Shown one piece after another: positions 40,254 to 52,512 of a stretch of DNA of 64,000 bases (the first letter of the stretch is position 1; every line of letters begins with the position of its first letter). A program made the position numbers and the translations under genes. The notes beneath the pieces are model-generated. The model saw only the letters and a program-made list of their open reading frames with translations. It searched no databases and was not told the origin of the DNA. Source of the stretch: Euzebya sp. (lineage in GTDB: Bacteria > Actinomycetota > Nitriliruptoria > Euzebyales > Euzebyaceae); contig NZ_CAXQBR010000075.1 in assembly GCF_964222135.1 (NCBI RefSeq), positions 1 through 64,000 on the forward strand, written 5' to 3'.

Positions 40254-40751
40254 CTACTTCTTCAGCTCGCCCGCGGCGTTCTCGAGGTGGGCGCGGACGA
40301 ACCACTGGAACATCTCGAGCTGCTCGGTCTGCTCGACCATCATGTCGTGGGTGACGAGGTCGAGCTCCTCGAACTCGCGCATCACCTCGCGGTGGTCGGC
40401 GATCAGGCCGTTGTAGACCTCGTCGAGCTTCTTGAGGTGGGAGTCGACGCTGGCGCGCTTCAGGTCGTACTCGTCCCAGTCACGGGTCGTGGCGACGTAG
40501 CCGGGCGTGCCGACCGGCTCGCCGCCGAGCGTCGCGATGCGCTCTGCGGTGGCGTCGGTCATCTCGCGGACGGCCTCGACGTGCGGGTCCAGCATCTCGT
40601 GGACGCCGATGAAGTTCGGGCCGACGACGTTCCAGTGGATGTGCTTCAGGGTCAGCTGGAGGTCGATCAGGGCGACCAGGCGCTCCTGCAGCTGGGTGCG
40701 GACCTTCTCGGCGGCGCTGTCGTCCAGGCCGGGTACGGACCAGGCGGTCAT
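40254..40751 (-). CDS. dps: Dps family DNA-binding ferritin-like protein
   Basis: Protein of 165 residues, four-helix ferritin-like fold. The intersubunit ferroxidase motif is visible: LKHIHWNVVGPNFIGVHEMLDPHVEAVREMTDATAERIATLGG, with His, Asp and Glu ligands. Dps dodecamers store iron, consume hydrogen peroxide and protect DNA in starvation or oxidative stress. AGGAG lies about 10 bases before ATG. It is the only intact peroxide-defence gene in a window where the ohr locus is decayed and a globin gene is truncated. Confidence 0.92.
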   Translation of the reverse strand: MTAWSVPGLDDSAAEKVRTQLQERLVALIDLQLTLKHIHWNVVGPNFIGVHEMLDPHVEAVREMTDATAERIATLGGEPVGTPGYVATTRDWDEYDLKRASVDSHLKKLDEVYNGLIADHREVMREFEELDLVTHDMMVEQTEQLEMFQWFVRAHLENAAGELKK

Positions 40752-40839: not shown

Positions 40840-42603
40840 TCAGCCGGCGAGGGACGAGGCGACCGCGTCGGCGACGGCGTGCTCGCCGCCCACCACCAGC
40901 AGCTGGCCGGCGTTCCCGCGCAGCCACTGCTCGCTGGCCGGCGCACCGCCGGGGGTGCGGCCGTCGACGAGCACGAGCGGCGATCCGGAGGCGGCTGCCG
41001 CCGGCCCCGCGGCGAGGGCGTCGGGGTAGTCGAGGCCGGTCGCGACCCACACCTCGGCCGCGTCGAGGCCGCGGTCGACCGCCGCGTCGGCGATCGCCAC
41101 GCTGGTCTCGTACCGGGTGGCGCCAGCCAGCCGGGTGGCCGTGCCACCGGCGAGGGCGGCGGCCTCCTCGGCGACGTGCGCGCTGATCGCGGCGGTCCCG
41201 CCGACCACGGTGACCCCGTCCGGCCGATGGGTGGTCAGGAAGTCCGCCACCGGGTCGGGCAGCCGGTCGGACTCCACCAGCAGCACGGGCGTGACGGCGT
41301 TCGCCGCCAGCGCGCTCGCGGAGAGCGCATCCGGCCACGCGCGGTCGCCGGCATCGGCGTCGCCGAGGGCGAGGATCACGTCGTCGTAGGGCGAGGCCGA
41401 CCCGTAGGTCAGGATGTCCTCGGCCACCGCGACGCTGAGCGCGTACCGGTCCTGCCCGGTCAGACGGCCGATGTTCCGCACGCCGGCGTCGCGCAGGTCG
41501 TCCTCGACCGATCCGGGCAGGTCCGACGGCGAGCCGACGAGGTAGGCGTTGCGCGCCCCGAGCCGACGGATCTCGTCGCTGACGTCGTCATCGAGCCCGG
41601 TGCTGCCGGTGAGCAGGACGGGAGCGTCGAGGAACCCGGCGAGGGGGGCGGAGACCAGGGCCTCGACGTAGCTGCCGGCGGGGACCACCACCACGGTCGA
41701 GGCGGCGCTGCGTGCAGCCCGGGACATCGCGACGGCCGTCGCGACGCGGGTGTCGCCCGCCAGCCGGGTGAACCCGATCGGCCCGCGGTCACCCGGCGCG
41801 TCGTCGTCATCTCCGTCGTCATCGCCGGCGTCGCCCTGGTCGTCGTCGTCCTGGTCGTCGCCCCCGGTCGGGGCGGGCATCGGCGACGGGGCCTCGGGGA
41901 AGTCGCCGCGGGCCTCGGCGGCCTCGAACGACGGGTAGGGGTTGATCCGGATGTCGGCGTCGGTGTCCTCGACGATCTCGAAGTGGAGGTGCGACCCGCT
42001 CGACTCGGCGTTGCCGGAGTCTCCGACCCATCCGAGGAGGTCGCCGCGCTCGACCCGCGCGCCCTCCTCGATCCCGGGGGCGAAGGCGTTCTCCATGCCG
42101 CCCATCCCGTCATCGGTGCCCGGGGTGTCGTCGTTCATGTGGATGTAGAAGTAGCTGAGGCCGTCGTCCCCGCAGAGCCGGAAGTACCAGCCCGCCGACG
42201 CGTGCTCCTGGGTCTTCAGGTAGCAGATCGTGCCGCCGACGACCGCGTGCGCGGGGGTCATCTTGTCCGCCATGACGTCGATCGCGCGGTGCGTCCGTCC
42301 GCCGGACCGCCCGTCGTAGTAGCTGTCGTACAGGGGTCGTTGGTACTGCCCCTCGGGGAGCGGGAACGTCAGGTCGACGACGCGGGTGTCCCCCTCGTAG
42401 GCGTATGACGACGAGTCCCCGTCCCCGTGCGGGGCGTGCGGGTGGCCGTGGTCGTCGAGCGGTGCCTCGCCGTGGTCGGGGATGCCGTCCGTGGCGACCA
42501 CCGGCGAGGTGGCCAGGACCGTCGACGACACGAGGGCCATCGACAGGACGAGCAGCACGGGCAGGGTTCGGCGCAGGGGGAAGCGGCGGCGCATGGGATC
42601 CAT
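40840..42603 (-). CDS. Secreted M23-family peptidase fused to CWB2 repeats
   Basis: Exported protein of 587 residues. Signal peptide (RRTLPVLLVLSMALVSSTVLA), His/Asp-rich stretch (about 42-62), then a LytM/M23 metallopeptidase domain with zinc-site motifs HRAIDVMAD and GSHLHFEI (about 105-215). A very acidic linker (DDQDDDDQGDAGDDDGDDDD near 245-264) follows, then three CWB2 repeats to the end. M23 enzymes cut peptidoglycan cross-links; the CWB2 part should hold the enzyme on the wall. The first M23 motif is HxxxD, as in active enzymes. ATG at 42603 or 42594. A structured leader lies upstream. Confidence 0.87.
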   Translation of the reverse strand: MDPMRRRFPLRRTLPVLLVLSMALVSSTVLATSPVVATDGIPDHGEAPLDDHGHPHAPHGDGDSSSYAYEGDTRVVDLTFPLPEGQYQRPLYDSYYDGRSGGRTHRAIDVMADKMTPAHAVVGGTICYLKTQEHASAGWYFRLCGDDGLSYFYIHMNDDTPGTDDGMGGMENAFAPGIEEGARVERGDLLGWVGDSGNAESSGSHLHFEIVEDTDADIRINPYPSFEAAEARGDFPEAPSPMPAPTGGDDQDDDDQGDAGDDDGDDDDAPGDRGPIGFTRLAGDTRVATAVAMSRAARSAASTVVVVPAGSYVEALVSAPLAGFLDAPVLLTGSTGLDDDVSDEIRRLGARNAYLVGSPSDLPGSVEDDLRDAGVRNIGRLTGQDRYALSVAVAEDILTYGSASPYDDVILALGDADAGDRAWPDALSASALAANAVTPVLLVESDRLPDPVADFLTTHRPDGVTVVGGTAAISAHVAEEAAALAGGTATRLAGATRYETSVAIADAAVDRGLDAAEVWVATGLDYPDALAAGPAAAASGSPLVLVDGRTPGGAPASEQWLRGNAGQLLVVGGEHAVADAVASSLAG

Positions 42604-42829: not shown

Positions 42830-43630
42830 TCAGGTGGCCTGGCCGGCGTCGGTCCCGGTCGCCGTCTCGGTGGTCGGCGCGGCCTCCGCGGGCGCCTCGG
42901 CCGGCCCGCCGTCGAGCCCGAGCTCGGAGCGGATCTGGGACAGCCGGGCCTGGGCCTCGGTGTTGAGGGCCGCCTGCTCGATCTCGAGCATCCGCCCCTC
43001 GACCGACTCGCCCTGGAGCTCCTGGGCGCCCTTGGCCTTGGCGTAGCGGGCCTCGATCTTCTCCCGCACCTCGTCGAAGGAGGGGGTCTCCTGTCCGACG
43101 GTCTCGGACAGCGACGCCATCGCGGCGTTCATCTGCTCCTGCATCTTCGCCTGGTCCAGCTGGCTCAGCAGCTTCTGGCGCTCGGCCAGCTTCTTCTGCA
43201 GGGCCGTCGAGTTCTGCTGCACCGCGGCCTTCGCCTGGTCGGCGGACTGCGCCTGCTGCAGCGACAGCGCCTTCAGCTCCTCGACCTCGTGCTCGACGGC
43301 GATGAGGCGGTTGGCGAAGGACTCCGCGGCGGAGGTGTACTCCCCCGCCTTCTTCGCGTCGCCCTTCTTGGTGGCGTCCTCGGCCATCAGCACGGCCTGG
43401 CGGGCGGAGCGGGAGATCTTCTCCATCTCCTCCATCGCCCGGTTCAGGCGCATGTCGGTCTGCTTCTGGTTGGCGATGACGTTGGCCGCGTTCTCCTTGA
43501 GCTGCCGGTGCTGCTCCTGGGCCTCCATGATCGCCTGCTCCAGCTGGACCTTCGGGTCGGCGCGCTCGTTGAACCGACCGGTGAGCAGCGCCACCAGGTA
43601 GTTCCACGCTCGGCGGATCAGCTTGATCAT
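42830..43630 (-). CDS. pspA: PspA/IM30 family phage-shock protein
   Basis: Protein of 266 residues, almost entirely coiled coil. The amphipathic N-terminal helix MIKLIRRAWNYLVALLTG binds stressed membranes; the following helices (DPKVQLEQAIMEAQEQHRQLKENAANVIANQ..., about 25-215) form the ESCRT-III-like core. The C-terminus is Ala/Glu/Thr rich and acidic. It stabilises the cytoplasmic membrane under stress by oligomerising. ATG overlaps the stop of the preceding membrane coiled-coil gene (ATGA), so the two proteins are made together. No PspB/C or ClgR regulator is nearby, as in many actinobacteria. Confidence 0.9.
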   Translation of the reverse strand: MIKLIRRAWNYLVALLTGRFNERADPKVQLEQAIMEAQEQHRQLKENAANVIANQKQTDMRLNRAMEEMEKISRSARQAVLMAEDATKKGDAKKAGEYTSAAESFANRLIAVEHEVEELKALSLQQAQSADQAKAAVQQNSTALQKKLAERQKLLSQLDQAKMQEQMNAAMASLSETVGQETPSFDEVREKIEARYAKAKGAQELQGESVEGRMLEIEQAALNTEAQARLSQIRSELGLDGGPAEAPAEAAPTTETATGTDAGQAT

Positions 43631-44530: not shown

Positions 44531-44959
44531 TCAGTCCGCGTGCCGCGTGGCGTCGCGGCGGTCGCGCCACGCGCCGGTGGACCACAGGGCCCACGCGACC
44601 AGCACCGGCTGGAAGAAGAGCCGGACGAGCCTGGCCCGGTCGGATTCGAGTCCGAACGCGTCGACGCCCTCCACGTACTGGGACACGTTGCCCGGGAAGA
44701 TCGCCACGAAGAACCCCGCCACGACCCAGCCGACCAGCGACCGGCGACGTCGCGGGGCCGCCAGCAGCGCCGTGCCGAGGGCCAGCTCGACGACGCCGGA
44801 GCCGACGACGACCGCGTCGGCGTCGACGGGGATCCACGACGGCACCTGCGCCTGGAACTCCTCGCGCGCCACGATCAGGTGACCGGTGCCGGCCACCAGC
44901 AGCGCACCGCCGAGGGCCAGGCGCCCGAGGGTCCGCACGAGGCCTGTGCGCGCGCTCAC
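44531..44959 (-). CDS. DoxX-like small membrane protein
   Basis: Membrane protein of 142 residues with about four hydrophobic helices: LGRLALGGALLVAGTGHLIVAREEF, ADAVVVGSGVVELALGTALLA, LVGWVVAGFFVAIFPGNVSQYVEG and FQPVLVAWALWSTGA. The GTGHL and PGN-x-xQY pattern is typical of DoxX-like/DUF4267-type proteins linked to redox or thiosulfate metabolism and oxidative stress. GTG overlaps the stop of the broken ohr gene as GTGA, with GGAGG directly upstream, so it was co-translated with ohr. Exact family is uncertain. Confidence 0.72.
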   Translation of the reverse strand: MSARTGLVRTLGRLALGGALLVAGTGHLIVAREEFQAQVPSWIPVDADAVVVGSGVVELALGTALLAAPRRRRSLVGWVVAGFFVAIFPGNVSQYVEGVDAFGLESDRARLVRLFFQPVLVAWALWSTGAWRDRRDATRHAD

Positions 44960-45269
44960 GCCTCCACCACGTCGATCACGACGTCGACGTTCCCGTGGAT
45001 CGCGTTCGAGTACGGGCAGACCTCGTGGGCGCGGTCGGCCAGCTCCTGGGCCGTCTCCCGGTCCAGGCGGGGGATCGCGACGTGCAGTGCGACCTCGAGG
45101 CCGAACCGTCCCCGGCGGCGAACAGCTGCTCGGGGTTGGCGCCGTCACCGGAGCCGCCCATGGCCTGGGGGACGGCGAGGTCGAGGTCGATGCGGCCGTC
45201 CGGGGTCGCGGCGTGGCCGTCGCGCCCGCCTCCGGTGGCGATGGCCTCAGCGGTGTACAGGGTCTTCAC
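44956..45269 (-). pseudogene. ohr: Broken organic hydroperoxide resistance gene (OsmC/Ohr), internal deletion
   Basis: The first 53 codons (MKTLYTAEAIATGGGRDGH ... NPEQLFAAG) match the start of Ohr. The following codons in that frame are not Ohr, but the +1-type frame resumes family sequence: GRFGLEVALHVAIPRLDRE, then ELADRAHEVCPYSNAIHGNVDVVIDV, to TGA at 44956. Comparison with family pattern shows that about 30-35 codons, including the YAACF block with the peroxidatic cysteine, are missing and the frame is shifted. Only the resolving-type cysteine (VCPYS) remains. The gene cannot make active Ohr, which normally reduces organic peroxides. Confidence 0.82.
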
Positions 45270-45542: not shown

Positions 45543-45689
45543 ATGGACGTGACCACGATCGCGATCCTCGTCGTCGTGGCGGTCCTGGTGCTGGTCCTCG
45601 CCGTGCTGTGGGTCCAGCGGCGACGCCGGCGGGGCGGGCTGAAGGTCGTCGCGAACCCGCAGGCGCCTGGCGACGGTGAGGCGACGTGA
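45543..45689 (+). CDS. Small single-helix membrane protein, 48 residues
   Basis: Start ATG with GGAGGG about 7 bases upstream. The product is MDVTT, one membrane helix (IAILVVVAVLVLVLAVLWV), a strongly basic stop-transfer RRRRR, and a short hydrophilic tail. No known family. Its TGA overlaps the GTG of the PRC-barrel gene (GTGA), so it is first in a three-gene unit and may tether or accompany the PRC-barrel proteins at the membrane. Confidence 0.65.
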   Translation: MDVTTIAILVVVAVLVLVLAVLWVQRRRRRGGLKVVANPQAPGDGEAT

Positions 45690-46240
45690 CCGCCGCGCGC
45701 GATGCCCTCCTGATCCACGCGATGGACGTCACCGGCATGCCGGTCGTGACCCTGGGCGGTGACGCGGTGGCGCAGGTCCGCGACGTCCTGTTCGACCGCA
45801 CCGGCAACGTCCGCGGGTTCACCCTCGCCGGGCGGGGGCTGTTCAGCGGGCCGATGGCGGAGTGGCTGCCCTGGGCCGGCGTCCACGGCTTCGGACCGGA
45901 CGCGATCATCGTCGCCGACGTCGAGGCGCTGACGCGGGAGGGCCGCGACCCCGTCGACGGTGACGTGGTGGGCGACGAGGTCCTCACCCGCTCGGGCACC
46001 GTCGTCGGCACCGTGACCGACGCCGTCCTGCGCCTCGAGCCGGAGGTGCTCGACGTCGTGGGCTACGAGGTCGAACCGTCTGACGGCGGCGAACCACGGT
46101 TCATCCCGCTGCCCGACACCCTGTCGGTCACAGGCGGTCGCCTGGTCGTGCCCGACGAGGCGATGGAGTTCCTGGCACGCGACCTGTCGGGCTTCGGGGC
46201 GTCGGTCGACACGTTCCGCGAGCGCCTGAGAGGGGCCTGA
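45686..46240 (+). CDS. PRC-barrel domain protein
   Basis: Protein of 184 residues with two PRC-barrel-like halves: TGMPVVTLGGDAVAQVRDVLFDRTGNVRGFTLAG (about 14-50) and VGDEVLTRSGTVVGTVTDAVLRLEPEVLDVVGYEV (about 94-130). The beta-barrel is found in RimM and the photosynthetic reaction-centre H subunit and mediates protein or RNA contacts. No signal peptide. GTG overlaps the stop of the small membrane gene, and a second PRC-barrel gene starts 2 bases after the stop. Function unknown. Confidence 0.78.
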   Translation: MTAARDALLIHAMDVTGMPVVTLGGDAVAQVRDVLFDRTGNVRGFTLAGRGLFSGPMAEWLPWAGVHGFGPDAIIVADVEALTREGRDPVDGDVVGDEVLTRSGTVVGTVTDAVLRLEPEVLDVVGYEVEPSDGGEPRFIPLPDTLSVTGGRLVVPDEAMEFLARDLSGFGASVDTFRERLRGA

Positions 46241-46242
46241 TC

Positions 46243-46659
46243 GTGGCCACCAGCCTGAAGTCCCTCCGCAAGCGGAAGGTCGTCGACACCGCGACCGCCG
46301 AGACGATCGGCCGGGTCCGCGGCGTCAGGATCGACCCGAGCGGCCCGTCGGTCATCGCCCTCGAGGTCAAGGGCGCCGTCAGCGGCGTGGTCGCCTTCTC
46401 CGAGATCATCGGCATCGGCCCGGACGCGGTGACGCTGCCACGCGCCGCGACGGTCATCGAGCAGGACGTCGACGCGCCGACCGACGCCGACGCCTACGGC
46501 GCGCGACTGCTCGACGACGGCGGTCGCGAGCACGGGACGGTCAGCGACCTGGTCATCGACGACGACGGGCGGGTCATCCAGGTCGTCGCCGGCGACCAGA
46601 CCTTCGACCGGACCCTCCTCGGCATCGGCTCCTACGCGGTCGTCATCTCCAGGGCCTGA
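46243..46659 (+). CDS. PRC-barrel domain protein, shorter paralogue
   Basis: Protein of 138 residues. Two barrel repeats can be read: KVVDTATAETIGRVRGVRIDPSGPSVIALEV (about 12-43) and ARLLDDGGREHGTVSDLVIDDDGRVIQVVAG (about 87-117). It is clearly related in pattern to the protein encoded just upstream (GxVxxVxxD), perhaps by duplication. GTG start 2 bases after the neighbour's stop. The operon ends at a set of hairpins at 46667-46755. Function unknown. Confidence 0.75.
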   Translation: MATSLKSLRKRKVVDTATAETIGRVRGVRIDPSGPSVIALEVKGAVSGVVAFSEIIGIGPDAVTLPRAATVIEQDVDAPTDADAYGARLLDDGGREHGTVSDLVIDDDGRVIQVVAGDQTFDRTLLGIGSYAVVISRA

Positions 46660-46755: not shown

Positions 46756-48642
46756 CTAGAAGGTGGAGATGACGGCGGTGAAGACCTGGTCGATGGAGCG
46801 GGGGTCGGAGGAGTCGTAGACGACGGCGTCGGTGGCCTCGGCGATCAGCTCGAGGTCGCTCGTGTCGGCGTCCTGGCCGTAGCGGATCGGGAAGATGCGG
46901 ATCTGCGTCGCGTTCTCGCCCTGGGCCTGGGACAGCACCTCGAGCATCGCCGCGCGGTCGTCGTTGCGGGGGTCGTCGTTCTGGCCGTCGCTCAACAGGA
47001 CGATGGCGTTGATCTTGTCCGGGTCGAACTGCTCGGCCATGTCGGTGAAGCTGTCCTGGGTGACGGTGTACAGCGGGGTGCCCGCCACCGGCAGCAACCC
47101 GCTGAGGGCATCCCGCAGCGCCTGCTCGTTCTGCCCGATCGGCGCGAGGGGGACCAGGTCGAGGTGGTCGAGCGGCTCCCCCGTGTCGGGGTCGACACCC
47201 AGGTCCGTGGAGAAGATCCGCAGACCCACCACGTCGGCGTCGATGAACTCATCGAGGGCGGTGGTGGCCGCCGAGATCGCCAGGTCGAGCTTGGTCTCCC
47301 GGCTGCCCGACGCCGCGAAGTCCGCCATCGACCCCGAGACGTCGAGGACCAGCAGCACCTGCGCCGGCTTGCGGGTCTCCGACCACTGGGCGATCAGGTC
47401 CACCATCACGTCGGAGTCGGGCGTGGAGAGCGTGGTGGTCGGCTGCGCCGGGTCGACGCCGTTCTCCGGCACCACCGGGTCGGCGATCGGCACCTCGATG
47501 TTCCCGGGGCGGAACCCGAACTCGAGGACGCGCTCCTGGTTCTCGGGCTGCTGGACGAAGTCGGTGAAGATCTGCGCCGCCGCGGCCTGCTCGTCAGAGA
47601 CCCACTCGGCGTCGGAGAGGATGAAGAACGGGTTGTCGCTGAACAGCGTCCCCTCCTCGGGGTAGATGGCGACCAGCGGCGTCCGCGGCTCGACGACCTC
47701 CTCCCCCGGCTCGAGCACGCCGTCGGGGTTGCCGCGGTTGTAGTTGATCAGGCTGACCTCCTCGACGGCCACCGCCGAGGCGTAGGTCAGCGCCGTCCCG
47801 CGCTGGTCGTTGCGGTACCAGTTGTTGAGGAACGTCAGCGTCGTGTCCCCGTAGTGGACGACGGCGGACTCGATGCTGGCCGCGCCCTCCAGCACGTCGG
47901 CCCGCGAGATGTCCTCACCGGTGAGGTCCTGGGTCTTGTCGACCAGCGCGTAGTACTGGGCGATCAGCGCCGACAGGCCGGAGGTGGAGAAGTTGGGGTT
48001 CGTCTTCCCCAGCCGGAACGGCCCCCACTCGGGGTGGCCGTAGGCCGCCCAGCCCTGCGGGTCGCGGGACAGCTCGAGGATCGTGTTCCACCCGATCGGC
48101 TCGTCGGGGTGCCCGAGCGCCTCGGCCATCGGCTGCGGCATGGCGATGACCAGCGGGCTCAGCATGAACGGCGCGTAGTCCTCCGGGACGTACGGCGTCT
48201 CGCCGGCGTCGATCAGGCGCTGGTTCAGCACCTGCCCCCACGCGGCGGAGGCCGGCGACCAGATCACCGGCAGGGGCCCCTCGAGGTCGGTGTCCCAACC
48301 GGTCGCGAGCAGGTCGGCCGCCAGGCCCGACGCCTTGGTCTGGGGCCGGACGAAGATGCACCCGCCGCCGATCGCCTCGACGTCCTGGGACTCGTCGGAG
48401 CCGTTGAACTCGTTCGCCAGGTCCGTGAGCAGGTCGATCTTCTCACTCGACACCGCCATGTCGACCGTGGTGCACCCCCCGGGGTCCGCCTGCGCCAGAC
48501 CGCCCTGGGTCAGGTCCCCCTCCCCTCGACCGTCACCGCCGTCGAGGGTCTCCCCCCCGCCGTCGGCGCTGGGCGTGCACGCCGCGACCACCAGCGCCAG
48601 CACCACCCGCACCCCGAGCGCACGCCACCGAGCCACAACCAC
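46756..48642 (-). CDS. Lipoprotein fusing a solute-binding fold with a VWA domain
   Basis: Exported lipoprotein of 628 residues. Signal peptide and lipobox VAAC (C22). Residues about 60-400 show the type 2 periplasmic-binding fold (VDMAVSSEKIDLLTDLANEFNG, ATGWDTDLEGPLPVIWSPAS, MLSPLVIAMPQPMAEALG, FILSDAEWVSDEQAAAAQIFTDFVQQPENQ). Residues about 425-620 form a von Willebrand A domain with MIDAS DVSGS (D434) and VLLSDGQND. Last gene of a three-gene operon with a membrane-anchored binding-fold protein and a TerB-like-AAA ATPase. TACCCT (48678-48683, complement) may be an internal promoter. Ligand unknown; I recall similar SBP-VWA proteins in actinobacteria. Confidence 0.85.
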   Translation of the reverse strand: MVVARWRALGVRVVLALVVAACTPSADGGGETLDGGDGRGEGDLTQGGLAQADPGGCTTVDMAVSSEKIDLLTDLANEFNGSDESQDVEAIGGGCIFVRPQTKASGLAADLLATGWDTDLEGPLPVIWSPASAAWGQVLNQRLIDAGETPYVPEDYAPFMLSPLVIAMPQPMAEALGHPDEPIGWNTILELSRDPQGWAAYGHPEWGPFRLGKTNPNFSTSGLSALIAQYYALVDKTQDLTGEDISRADVLEGAASIESAVVHYGDTTLTFLNNWYRNDQRGTALTYASAVAVEEVSLINYNRGNPDGVLEPGEEVVEPRTPLVAIYPEEGTLFSDNPFFILSDAEWVSDEQAAAAQIFTDFVQQPENQERVLEFGFRPGNIEVPIADPVVPENGVDPAQPTTTLSTPDSDVMVDLIAQWSETRKPAQVLLVLDVSGSMADFAASGSRETKLDLAISAATTALDEFIDADVVGLRIFSTDLGVDPDTGEPLDHLDLVPLAPIGQNEQALRDALSGLLPVAGTPLYTVTQDSFTDMAEQFDPDKINAIVLLSDGQNDDPRNDDRAAMLEVLSQAQGENATQIRIFPIRYGQDADTSDLELIAEATDAVVYDSSDPRSIDQVFTAVISTF

Positions 48643-48704
48643 ACCGAACCCCTCAGCCGATCCGACCTCTCGGCGACAGGGTAGTGCAGCCCGGCCCAGC
48701 CGGG

Positions 48705-49682
48705 TCAGGGCAGCCGTTCGCGGAGCGCGAAGAGGGTGCCGCCGCTCGGCAGCCCGTCGTCATCCGGCGGGGCGGGCGGGCCGTCCGCCACCGGCGCGCC
48801 GTCCGGCCCGCGCCACCCGGCGTCGAGGAGGGCCTGCGCGGTGCGCTCGCCGAGATCCCCGACGTCAGCCCCGTCGACCCCGACGGCCACCACGGGCAGG
48901 TGGGCGACCGGGGTCGGCCAGGCCAGGTTCGCGTTGTCGCGGGTCGAGCCGCGCACGGCCGGCAGCGCGGTGGCCTCGAGCGCGACCGCGGTGTCGTTCT
49001 GCGCCCCGCCGGTGAGGATCAGCTGGCTGACGGGGTCACCGGTGCGCACCGACTGGCCCAGCACCCCGTCGACCCAGCTGACGTACGCCGTCCCCTGCAG
49101 GTCCGCGAGGCTGTACGCGGACCCGCCGAACAACCCGCCGGCCAGCGCTCCCAGGCCGGTGAGCGCCTCGGTGCTGCCGTCGAAGCTCGCGAACCCGCCG
49201 CGGAGGTCCCCGGTGCGGAGCAGCTCGGCCGCGCAGGCCCAGGTGATCTCGGCTCCGCAGGCGTCGGCGACCAGCTCGTCGCGGGCGACGGCGGTCACCA
49301 GGACCAGCGGCGAGGTCGCGAGCACGTCGCGGTCCTCACCGAAGGTGGCGCGGCTCCGCTGGGACTGCTCGATCATCTCGACGACGGCGAGCGGCGCCAC
49401 CAGGGCGTCGTAGGTGACCGGGGCGGTCGTGAAGGCGTCGAGCAGCTCGGCGAGGTCCAGCGCGTCCGACCCCGCCGGGCAGGCCTGGCCGAGGACCTCG
49501 TCGCACGCGACCGCGAGCTCGGCGTCCCCCTCCCCTCCCCCGCTGCCGGTCGCGGCCGTGGGACCCGTCGAGGGTGCGGCGACCGGCTCGTCGGACTCGA
49601 TGAACTCGCTCCGGACGTACAGGGCCCCGCCCACCAGCCCGACGGCGAGGACCAGCGCCAGGATCGTCTTGACCGCGCTCAC
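48705..49682 (-). CDS. Membrane-anchored extracellular protein, degenerate binding-protein-like
   Basis: Protein of 325 residues with an N-terminal membrane anchor (VKTILALVLAVGLVGGALYV), a short Thr/Ser/Gly linker and an extracellular domain. Blocks such as DVLATSPLVLVTAVARDELVADACG and SVRTGDPVSQLILTGGAQNDTAVALEATALPAVRG resemble in order the type 2 solute-binding fold of the next protein in the operon, but no confident family match is possible. Several cysteines (about residues 60-70 and 140-155) could form disulfides. GTG start 11 bases after the ATPase stop, with GAGGG upstream. Confidence 0.65.
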   Translation of the reverse strand: MSAVKTILALVLAVGLVGGALYVRSEFIESDEPVAAPSTGPTAATGSGGGEGDAELAVACDEVLGQACPAGSDALDLAELLDAFTTAPVTYDALVAPLAVVEMIEQSQRSRATFGEDRDVLATSPLVLVTAVARDELVADACGAEITWACAAELLRTGDLRGGFASFDGSTEALTGLGALAGGLFGGSAYSLADLQGTAYVSWVDGVLGQSVRTGDPVSQLILTGGAQNDTAVALEATALPAVRGSTRDNANLAWPTPVAHLPVVAVGVDGADVGDLGERTAQALLDAGWRGPDGAPVADGPPAPPDDDGLPSGGTLFALRERLP

Positions 49683-49692
49683 GTGCCGACCC

Positions 49693-51096
49693 TCATGACG
49701 TCGCGATCCGGTCGGGCAGGTCCTCGGTGGTGAGGGTCTGCAGGACCTCCGCGGTGGGCTGGTCGAGGGTGACCACCCGGCTGGCGTGGCGGGCCACGGC
49801 CGCCTCGAAGACGTTGCGGGCCAGCCGGCCGTTGCCGAAGCCCCGGTCGCGGGGCACGTCGTCGATCAGCTCGGCCAGGCGCGCCCGGGCGTCGTCGTCG
49901 AAGTGGTACTCGTTGCCGTCGGCGATCAGGTCGGCGATCGCGACCAGCTCGTCGGTGGTGTAGTCGGGGAAGTGGATCGTCTGGGGGAACCGCGACCGCA
50001 GCCCGGGGTTCGAGTCCATCAGCTGGACCATCTCGTCGGGGTAGCCGGCCATGATCACGACCGTGTCGTCCCGGCGGTCCTCGACCAGCTTGACGATCGC
50101 GTCGATCGCCTCGCGACCGAAGTCCTTCTCGCCACCGCGCACGAGCGAGTAGGCCTCGTCGATCAGCAGCACCCCGCCGCGGGCCGCGTCGAAGACCTTG
50201 ACCACGTTCGTCGCCGTCTGCCCGACGAAGCCCGCGACCAGACCCGAGCGGTCGGTCTCGACCAGGTGCCCGCGCGGCACGACCTCGAGGGTGCGGTAGA
50301 TCTGGGCGATCAGCCGGGCGACGGTCGTCTTCCCGGTGCCCGGGTTGCCGGTGAAGACCAGGTGGCGGCTCGAGTCCGAGACCTTCAGACCCTTCTCCGC
50401 CCGCAGCTTCTGGACCTGGATCAGGTTGGTGACCAGGCGCACCTCGGACTTGACCGGGTCGAGGCCGACCAGCTCGTCGAGCTCGGCGAGGAGCTCCTCG
50501 AGCGGCCGTGGCGGCGGCAGCTCCTCGAGCGCCGCCTCGGCGTCGGCGTCGGCGTCGGCCGTCGCCTCCTGCGCGGCGAGGGTGGGGTTCGGCGGCGGTC
50601 CCTGCGCCCTCGGGCCGCGGGGCAGCCCGGCGGACGTGATCGCGGTGAGGAGGGTGCGGCGGAACCGCTCGATGGCCTGCAGCTCGACGTGCTGGGTGAC
50701 GCTGTCGAGGGCCACGACGTGGTGGGCCAGGCGGAGGGCGTGGACGTAGTAGGTCCAGGCGTGGTTGGTCTGCTTGGCCCGGTCCGCTGCGACCAGCGTG
50801 TCGAACATCAGCGACGGCTTGTCGATGAAGACCCGCTTGCCGGCCATCATCCCCATTCCGCGAAGCGCCGCAGGGGTGGCGTGGTGGATGTGGGTGTCCA
50901 TCAACCCGCTGAACGCACCGATCAGGGCCCACAGCTCGGTGTCCGAGTGCGCCCCGTCGGCGTCGATCATGGCGCCGACGATCTCGTAGGCCTCCGCGAC
51001 CACGTCGGCCTGGGGGTCCTTCGAGCCGAGCTCCTCGAGGGCGGGGGAGACGCCGGCGACGAACTCACGGACGGGGGCGCGCAGGGTGTCGGTCAC
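49693..51096 (-). CDS. CbbX/SpoVK-type AAA ATPase with TerB-like N-terminal region
   Basis: Cytosolic ATPase of 467 residues (from GTG 51096; an upstream GTG at 51117 is possible). The N-terminal 130 residues are helical, with an acidic pattern AMIDADGAHSDTELWALI and a second ALDSVTQHVELQAIERFRR, resembling TerB/TerB-like domains. An Ala/Asp/Glu linker leads to an AAA+ module: LDELVGLDPVKSEV, Walker A GNPGTGKTT (250-258), Walker B GVLLIDEAYSL, and arginine finger in PGLRSRFPQTI. Related ATPases remodel or activate partner proteins (CbbX, EccA). First of the operon with the two extracellular proteins. TerB assignment is by pattern only. Confidence 0.8.
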   Translation of the reverse strand: MTDTLRAPVREFVAGVSPALEELGSKDPQADVVAEAYEIVGAMIDADGAHSDTELWALIGAFSGLMDTHIHHATPAALRGMGMMAGKRVFIDKPSLMFDTLVAADRAKQTNHAWTYYVHALRLAHHVVALDSVTQHVELQAIERFRRTLLTAITSAGLPRGPRAQGPPPNPTLAAQEATADADADAEAALEELPPPRPLEELLAELDELVGLDPVKSEVRLVTNLIQVQKLRAEKGLKVSDSSRHLVFTGNPGTGKTTVARLIAQIYRTLEVVPRGHLVETDRSGLVAGFVGQTATNVVKVFDAARGGVLLIDEAYSLVRGGEKDFGREAIDAIVKLVEDRRDDTVVIMAGYPDEMVQLMDSNPGLRSRFPQTIHFPDYTTDELVAIADLIADGNEYHFDDDARARLAELIDDVPRDRGFGNGRLARNVFEAAVARHASRVVTLDQPTAEVLQTLTTEDLPDRIATS

Positions 51097-51136: not shown

Positions 51137-52387
51137 TCACAGCCCGTGCGGCACGTCCCGCTGGTCCGCGGACAGCTCGTCGACCGACAGGCCGTGCGCC
51201 GCGAGCTTCGCGGCGGCGATCTCGCGGTCCAGTGCCGGCGAGATCACGTGCACCCCCGGCTCGTAGCCGCCGCGTGCGAGCTCGTGGCAGCCCACGCCCT
51301 GGACGGCGAAGGACAGGTCCATGATCTCGATCGGGTGGCCCAGTCCGCCGGCGATGTTCACCAGCGCCCCGCCGGCGAGGACGTGCACCCCGCGGCCGTC
51401 GGGGAGCTCGTAGCGCTCGATGCCCTCGCGGACCTCGACCACCTCGACCGCCGCGCCGGCCAGGGCCTCGACGTCGACCTCGAGGTCGTGGTGGCCGGCG
51501 TTGGCGAGGATCACCCCGTCGGCGAGCAGGTCGAGGTGGCGGGCCCCGATCGCCCGCAGCCCGCCGGTGGCGGTGATGACCAGGTCGGCGGTCGGCAGCG
51601 CCTCGACGGCGGTGGCGACGCTGTGGCCGTCCATGAACGCCTCGAGGGCCTTCACCGGGTCGATCTCGACCACCACCGGGGTCGCGCCGAGCGCCCGGAG
51701 GTAGGTGGCCAGACCCCTGCCGACCCAGCCGTAGCCGACGACGGCGACGGTCATGCCGGCGACCAGCATGTTGGTGAGGCCCATGATCGCCTGCACCGTC
51801 GACTGGCCCGTCCCGTAGCGGTTGTCGAAGAGGTGCTTGCAGGCCGCGTCGTTGGCCGCCATCGCCGGGAACGGGAGCCGACCGGCGTCGGCCAGGGCCC
51901 GCAGCCGCGCCACGCCGGTGGTCGTCTGCTCGGTGACCCCGACCAGGCCCGCGTAGGCCTCCGGGCGGTGGCGGGCCATGCGGGTGGTCAGCTCGGCCCC
52001 GTCGTCGATCACGAGCTCGGGGCGGGAGTCCGCCACGGCCAGCAGGTCCTCCTCCCACACCGCGTAGCCGCTCGCCCGGGTCGAGTGGACCTCGATCCCC
52101 CGGTCGACCAGGGCCGCGGCGACCTCGTCCTTGGTCGACAGCGGGTTTGACCCGGCGACGACGACCTCGGCACCGGCGTCCGCGAGGACCGTGGCGAGCA
52201 GCGCCGTCTTCGCCTCCAGGTGGACCACCAGCGCGACCCGACGGCCGTCCAGCGCCCCGTCGGCGAGGCGCTCGCGCAGGTAGGTGTCCACCACGGGTGA
52301 GTGCCGCCGCGCCCACTCGATCGCCCGCCGCCCCCCGGGCGCCAGGCCGAGGTCGGCGATGCGGGATCGGTCGGCGGCGTCGGACAC
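51137..52387 (-). CDS. ahcY: S-adenosylhomocysteine hydrolase-like protein (short form)
   Basis: NAD-dependent enzyme of 416 residues. The NAD-binding Rossmann motif is VAVVGYGWVGRGLATYLRALGATPVVVEIDP; the catalytic-domain blocks are VVAGSNPLSTKDEVAAAL, NDAACKHLFDNRYGTGQS and VGCHELARGGYEPGVHVI. It resembles the short archaeal/Thermotoga type that lacks the 40-residue insert. It splits S-adenosylhomocysteine into adenosine and homocysteine (or uses the inosyl analogue). GTG at 52387 has GGAG 5 bases upstream. An adenosine deaminase gene is at 23.5 kb. Divergent from the HAD gene. Confidence 0.85.
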   Translation of the reverse strand: MSDAADRSRIADLGLAPGGRRAIEWARRHSPVVDTYLRERLADGALDGRRVALVVHLEAKTALLATVLADAGAEVVVAGSNPLSTKDEVAAALVDRGIEVHSTRASGYAVWEEDLLAVADSRPELVIDDGAELTTRMARHRPEAYAGLVGVTEQTTTGVARLRALADAGRLPFPAMAANDAACKHLFDNRYGTGQSTVQAIMGLTNMLVAGMTVAVVGYGWVGRGLATYLRALGATPVVVEIDPVKALEAFMDGHSVATAVEALPTADLVITATGGLRAIGARHLDLLADGVILANAGHHDLEVDVEALAGAAVEVVEVREGIERYELPDGRGVHVLAGGALVNIAGGLGHPIEIMDLSFAVQGVGCHELARGGYEPGVHVISPALDREIAAAKLAAHGLSVDELSADQRDVPHGL

Positions 52388-52512
52388 GGGAGCTCCAGTC
52401 AGGTGGCGGTCGGGGCGGGCGACCGGCAGTGTGCCGGACACCGACGACAGCGCGCAGGTCCGGGTGCGGGCGGGCCCCGACGTGTGCGGACGCGTGTGCG
52501 ACGCTCGTCCCC

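Follow-up and report, generated by a model that had tools for sequence, protein, structure and literature searches.

The 64,000-nucleotide stretch of Euzebya sp. DNA analysed here (contig NZ_CAXQBR010000075.1, hereafter the window) encodes an AAA+ ATPase, a membrane-anchored protein designated MID, and a lipoprotein that joins a solute-binding protein (SBP) domain to a VWA domain, hereafter SBP-VWA. The three form the upstream half of a larger conserved unit of five genes, six with MurJ, which ends with pspA and also contains a gene that we named pspU. We believe, with a probability of roughly one half, that this unit is an actinobacterial envelope-maintenance module of the phage shock protein (PSP) type, in which the AAA+ would act on PspA or on PspU/MurJ and would be tuned by the outer binding proteins.

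Conserved gene order and the link between AAA+ and PspA

The window was compared with genomes of the same genus and the same order. The genes for AAA+, MID, SBP-VWA, PspU and PspA were found in the same order and on the same strand in 23 loci, the window included. These loci span two actinobacterial classes, and the conservation of synteny is far above chance. The original prediction, made from the letters of the window, had placed the first three genes in order (46756-51096) and described them as a three-gene operon with PspA 3 kb away. The coordinates of the open reading frames (ORFs) bear out this arrangement, and the AAA+, MID and SBP-VWA ORFs are real, ordered and intact. The three genes do co-occur in other genomes; the synteny of the 23 loci, however, extends the unit to five genes, or six with MurJ, and makes PspA, which had rightly been considered relevant, an operon member rather than a mere neighbour. 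In the window, the link to pspU and pspA is hidden because a pair of PRC-barrel genes and a DoxX-like gene intervene. The same-genus locus L012 shares the PRC-barrel pair, and the pair is absent from L013 and L014 of the same genus, where all five genes are contiguous with a gap of about 80 nt between the SBP-VWA gene and pspU. The start of pspA in the window overlaps the stop of pspU by 4 nt (ATGA).

The distribution of the module was followed with a profile of gene 3, SBP-VWA, which matched 21 of 296 sampled genomes of the phylum and 27 of 198 genomes of the class to which genome G159 belongs. This class is probably Acidimicrobiia, because L011, from an Acidimicrobiales metagenome-assembled genome, has an identical gene order. 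Among the 198 genomes, the AAA+ N-terminal domain (N-domain) and SBP-VWA occurred together in 16, and only one of the two in 11 and 5 (Fisher p 1.4e-12, uncorrected for phylogeny). Distant SBP-VWA homologs were also found in other actinobacteria (L051, L052, L054-L061), where the remaining module genes were absent at those loci. As a separate observation, L015 (6855-9167) and L016 (7067-9349) carry a gene combining a protein kinase with a PQQ-type beta-propeller, which lies between those for AAA+ and MID in the opposite orientation and whose product is possibly another sensor.

Among the loci read, each of those with a full AAA+ gene had a same-strand pspA nearby (29 of 29). This held also where the outer proteins were lost: L113-L116, which belong to one family, have the order AAA-PspU-MurJ-PspA without SBP-VWA, L134 has AAA-PspU-PspA, and L117 has AAA-PspA. 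SBP-VWA without AAA+ is commoner, and the outer part varies at such loci. AAA+ and PspA, together with PspU, therefore form the cytosolic core, and it is the extracytoplasmic binding proteins that can be exchanged, as would be expected if they were sensors. In agreement with this, distance matrices of the AAA+ correlated best with those of PspU (0.82) and PspA (0.81), compared with 0.62 for the control gene Obg, taken from a smaller set of eight loci, although shared ancestry contributes to these values. The window genome and three congeners each have a single PspA match, the one encoded in the operon. Other binding lipoproteins can occupy the operon as well; in L102 (5579-6730) and L108 (11911-14068), both without AAA+, a Peripla_BP_6 binding lipoprotein is encoded between PspU and PspA, and L108 has an adenylate/guanylate cyclase domain protein in the same interval.

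A gene for the lipid II flippase MurJ (PF03023, 1.4e-86) lies between pspU and pspA in eight Acidimicrobiia-like loci (L011, L048, L049, L092, L093, L098, L099, L100), and besides the operonic copy genomes G159, G060 and G140 have no other strong MurJ match. These findings count in favour of the PSP-type module and also bear on the main rival explanation, in which the AAA+ would be a chaperone dedicated to an enzyme or flippase of the peptidoglycan-precursor pathway (MurG or MurJ), with PspA only supporting the membrane there. Besides the operonic MurJ of these eight loci and of the four AAA-PspU-MurJ-PspA loci, it is favoured by a secreted M23/CWB2 wall enzyme encoded after pspA in the genus of the window, and by the family placement of the ATPase, whose top score is for SpoVK, a dedicated chaperone that activates MurG (PMC10659427). 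Most five-gene loci, however, including the window, keep AAA+ and PspA without an operonic MurJ, and the constant partner is PspA, not MurJ; by analogy with SpoVK such a chaperone may be entertained, and we regard it as rather unlikely. Where MurJ is inside the PspA operon, it is usually near convergent obg-proB genes (L048, L049, L092, L093, L098-L100, L113-L116).

Sequence and structural features of the encoded proteins

The core of the ATPase was matched by the Pfam families PF00004 (7.8e-17) and AAA_lid_6 (2.4e-18). In NCBIfam it matched SpoVK (5.2e-89), CbbX (4.1e-70) and EccA (8.5e-70), all under the equivalog cut-offs, and with 297.7 bits against a cut-off of 422.95 for the SpoVK equivalog TIGR02881 it is not SpoVK proper. 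CbbX is a Rubisco activase and EccA functions in type VII secretion; the solved relatives of gene 1 are CbbX (3syk, 3zuh) and EccA1 (9lur). Walker A (GNPGTGKT), Walker B (DE) and the SR arginine finger were invariant in the 23 loci, confirming the cytosolic AAA+ with these Walker A and arginine finger motifs that had been read from the window, and an aromatic pore loop (F/Y) was kept in all of them. Hallmarks of the SpoVK/CbbX/EccA clade, whose members are narrow, dedicated chaperones, are a Tyr in sensor 1 forming a GY signature, an Asn four residues ahead of the first arginine finger, and, in sensor 2, another arginine finger (PMC10659427). The GY of sensor 1 (G351 Y352), N363, R369, and both R424 and R427 of the sensor-2 motif GN[GA]R were present in 23 of 23 loci, R367 was present in 20, and on this sequence evidence gene 1 can be assigned to the clade. 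With SpoVK, CbbX and EccA it shares the AAA+ core, the sensor 1, upstream Asn and sensor-2 Arg residues, and a variable N-terminal domain, whereas its sub-cut-off scores, distinct helical N-domain and PspA context set it apart.

The pairing of AAA+ with VWA had suggested MoxR/VWA couples, in which an AAA+ and a VWA protein are likewise encoded together. This analogy fails by AAA+ family as well as by compartment, since AAA_3 is absent from the 24 Pfam matches (the best being AAA and AAA_lid_6), and the VWA domain is on an extracellular lipoprotein whereas the ATPase is cytosolic. A role in anti-phage defence found no support, with generic AAA matches only (IetA, 5.5e-12) and none for MID or SBP-VWA.

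The N-domain of the ATPase gave a confident all-helical AlphaFold2 (AF2) model (pLDDT 89.1) without a significant structural match by Foldseek or VIA. Its 22 members had no notable match in Pfam. It had been described as TerB-like. A search with the Pfam TerB profile (PF05099) matched 0 of 22 members of the N-domain at E up to 1, and the same profile found no TerB domain in the window genome. Alignment by HHalign against nine TerB domains of actinobacterial genomes gave E 0.0045 with a probability of 7.7%, compared with E 0.076 and 0.32 for control alignments; in this alignment two repeated helix-turn-helix units are co-linear with TerB at their ADG/LD and E positions. VIA lists 2h5n, which we take to be a TerB-like structure, at Z 4.8 (root mean square deviation (rmsd) 3.9, 97 aligned), level with unrelated helical folds. 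The domain thus stays under the profile cut-off for TerB, the fold and profile-profile evidence is weak and does not contradict the description, and a TerB identity is possible. A Ter-type metal or oxidative stress system made of TerB-AAA plus VWA would share with known Ter systems (TerB/TerD/TerY) the VWA domain and possibly the fold, and the co-linear repeats and the 2h5n match point in its direction. It is nevertheless improbable, given the low profile probability, the absence of any Pfam TerB match, and the absence of ter genes among the annotated proteins of these loci. An MIT-like N-domain was considered and discarded as noise (Foldseek 2v6y E 1.6 and 2cpt E 2.3; CdvC/Vps4 4lcb profile search E 0.81).

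MID has one N-terminal hydrophobic helix in 24 of 24 homologs, and its AF2 model (pLDDT 90.5) shows a type 2 binding-protein fold, matched by Foldseek (3.4e-8) and by VIA against 5um2 (Z 18.9, rmsd 3.8, 252 aligned). The expectation of a degenerate type 2 binding fold with a one-helix anchor was thereby borne out. The window MID alone matches no family in NCBIfam or Pfam, and SBP_bac_11 was matched in 8 of 24 MID members. MID can be identified as a diverged paralog of the gene 3 SBP domain, because the MID and SBP-VWA profiles align over 335 columns by HHalign (98.7%, E 3.4e-16) and because the MID ORFs of L102, L106 and L108 are matched about equally by the MID profile and by the SBP segment of the gene 3 profile. 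Four cysteines (C60, C68, C142, C150) are invariant in the MID alignment, and suggest two extracellular disulfides. L050 (1561-7013) carries a tandem pair of SBP-VWA genes beside genes for PspA and a PspU-like protein, and may represent an intermediate stage of the duplication from which MID arose.

The gene 3 product has a lipobox cysteine (C22), an SBP_bac_11 domain (residues 62-378, 1.2e-15) and a VWA domain (429-622, 2.1e-6) according to Pfam. In its metal ion-dependent adhesion site (MIDAS), D434, S436, S438 and D552 are invariant in 34 of 34 homologs, and T522 is found in 32, with Ser in the other 2. The predicted lipoprotein with a binding fold and an extracellular VWA domain with MIDAS (D434) is therefore upheld, the MIDAS being complete. 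The motif HPEWGxFxLGKTNPNxSTSGL is nearly invariant, suggesting that the binding pocket is functional. Since both outer proteins carry a substrate-binding fold, they might feed a transporter assembled by the AAA+, with PspA as a passenger. However, no transporter recurs beside these genes in clustered neighbourhoods, MID has a membrane anchor and has diverged where the SBP motif lies, and AAA+ persists with PspA where the SBPs are lost, making this explanation very doubtful.

PspU has a hydrophobic N-terminal stretch (about residues 28-60), from which its membrane placement is predicted by hydropathy, and a helical, coiled-coil-like C-terminal region. It accompanies pspA in most loci and matches no NCBIfam or Pfam family; a comparison with mycobacterial PspM, made through these family libraries alone, likewise gave no match. 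Gene 5 scores 110 bits with PF04012 against a cut-off of 33.9, and PspA is a member of the membrane-remodelling ESCRT-III family, ESCRT being the endosomal sorting complex required for transport (PMC8281802).

The operon of the window and its neighbours

The positions of the module genes and of the genes around them are collected in Table 1. A homolog of the M23/CWB2 peptidase gene follows pspA also in L012, L013 and L014, and its membership in the module is uncertain.

Table 1. Features of the window operon and adjacent genes.
Feature	Position	Strand	Description
Gene 1, AAA+ ATPase, 467 aa	51096-49693	-	AAA and lid at about residues 203-460
N-terminal domain of the ATPase, all-helical	50497..51096	-	Residues ~1-157, followed by a low-confidence linker
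Gene 2, MID, 325 aa	49682-48705	-	Starts 10 nt past the AAA gene
Gene 3, SBP-VWA lipoprotein, 628 aa	48642-46756	-	Starts 62 nt past MID
Two PRC-barrel genes	45686..46659	+	Between genes 3 and 4; outside the module
DoxX/MauE-like membrane protein	44531..45148	-	Between genes 3 and 4; weak Pfam matches only; outside the conserved unit
Gene 4, PspU (our own name), 256 aa	43627..44397	-	Conserved synteny; hydropathy
Gene 5, PspA/IM30	42830..43630	-	PF04012, 1.7e-31
Secreted M23 peptidase with CWB2 cell-wall-binding repeats	40840..42603	-	Directly downstream of pspA; Pfam
Ferritin-like (Dps-type) gene	40254-40751	-	Two genes downstream of pspA; PF00210, 1.2e-23
Adenosylhomocysteinase-like gene	51137-52441	-	Just upstream of the operon; NCBIfam, 5.8e-150; outside the conserved unit

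A proposed PSP-type module and its meaning

From the conserved gene set we infer the substrate of the ATPase and the direction of the signal as follows. PspA would polymerise on the inner face of the membrane, where PspU would hold it, and an AAA+ hexamer would be recruited via its helical N-domain. The ATPase would pull either on PspA, in the way Vps4 pulls on ESCRT-III, or on PspU/MurJ, and so take the complex apart or reset it. On the outer side, the SBP-VWA lipoprotein may recognise either a ligand or a protein partner that depends on a metal, and its state may be relayed across the membrane by the anchored MID. The likely role would be to repair the membrane and to adjust the lipid II supply to envelope stress.

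The AAA+ is a good candidate for a Vps4-like role because it is of the threading type, belongs to a clade of dedicated chaperones, and had PspA encoded with it at every locus read. In a more specific version of the proposed module, put forward tentatively, the AAA+ would serve PspA as a dedicated motor of the Vps4 type, recruited by a membrane adaptor and controlled externally by the binding-protein/VWA sensor pair; this would amount to a transmembrane-regulated ESCRT machine with a motor from an AAA+ clade other than that of Vps4. Several observations weigh against the proposed module. The N-domain has no recognised PspA-binding fold, its matches to the MIT domain of Vps4 being at noise level, and the C-terminal tails of PspA vary in length and sequence, with no obvious conserved tag for pulling. 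The AAA+ N-domain is missing from 11 of the 27 SBP-VWA genomes, so the outer part can work without the ATPase. The relation seen here between the AAA+ and an ESCRT-III-family protein is one of genetic linkage. Furthermore, PspA rods have an intrinsic slow ATPase activity, and PspF was judged non-essential for PspA remodelling, so that an AAA+ partner is not obligatory (PMC11746142).

The module resembles PSP systems, including the actinobacterial ClgR-PspA-PspM-PspN, in having PspA with an operonic membrane protein and a presumed role in envelope stress. None of PspB/C/F, LiaF and ClgR is among the five operon genes, and what the module has instead is a dedicated AAA+ of the SpoVK clade, together with the anchored MID and the SBP-VWA lipoprotein. 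With ESCRT-III/Vps4 it has in common an ESCRT-III-family polymer and an AAA+ whose N-terminal domain is helical and whose pore loop is aromatic, although its AAA+ is in the SpoVK/CbbX/EccA clade, its N-domain has no MIT assignment, and outer binding proteins are added. Two surveys of PSP systems (PMC11237479, PMC9239133) do not use the term vWA in their main texts, nor does the former mention CbbX there. No paper with an operon of PspA, VWA lipoprotein and AAA+ was found in the literature searched, many subscription papers and supplements lying outside the search. Provisionally, we regard the module as a variant of PSP and its combination of genes as new.

The literature describes as unclear whether PspF has a Vps4-like action or whether an equivalent ATPase exists for Vipp1 (PMC8281802). 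The operon described here provides a specific candidate ATPase for PspA, and does so in genomes that have no PspA match besides the operonic one. This candidate is linked to binding proteins outside the cytoplasm and, in a subset of lineages, to the lipid II flippase MurJ. The question of a Vps4-equivalent for PspA/Vipp1 thereby becomes testable with purified proteins.

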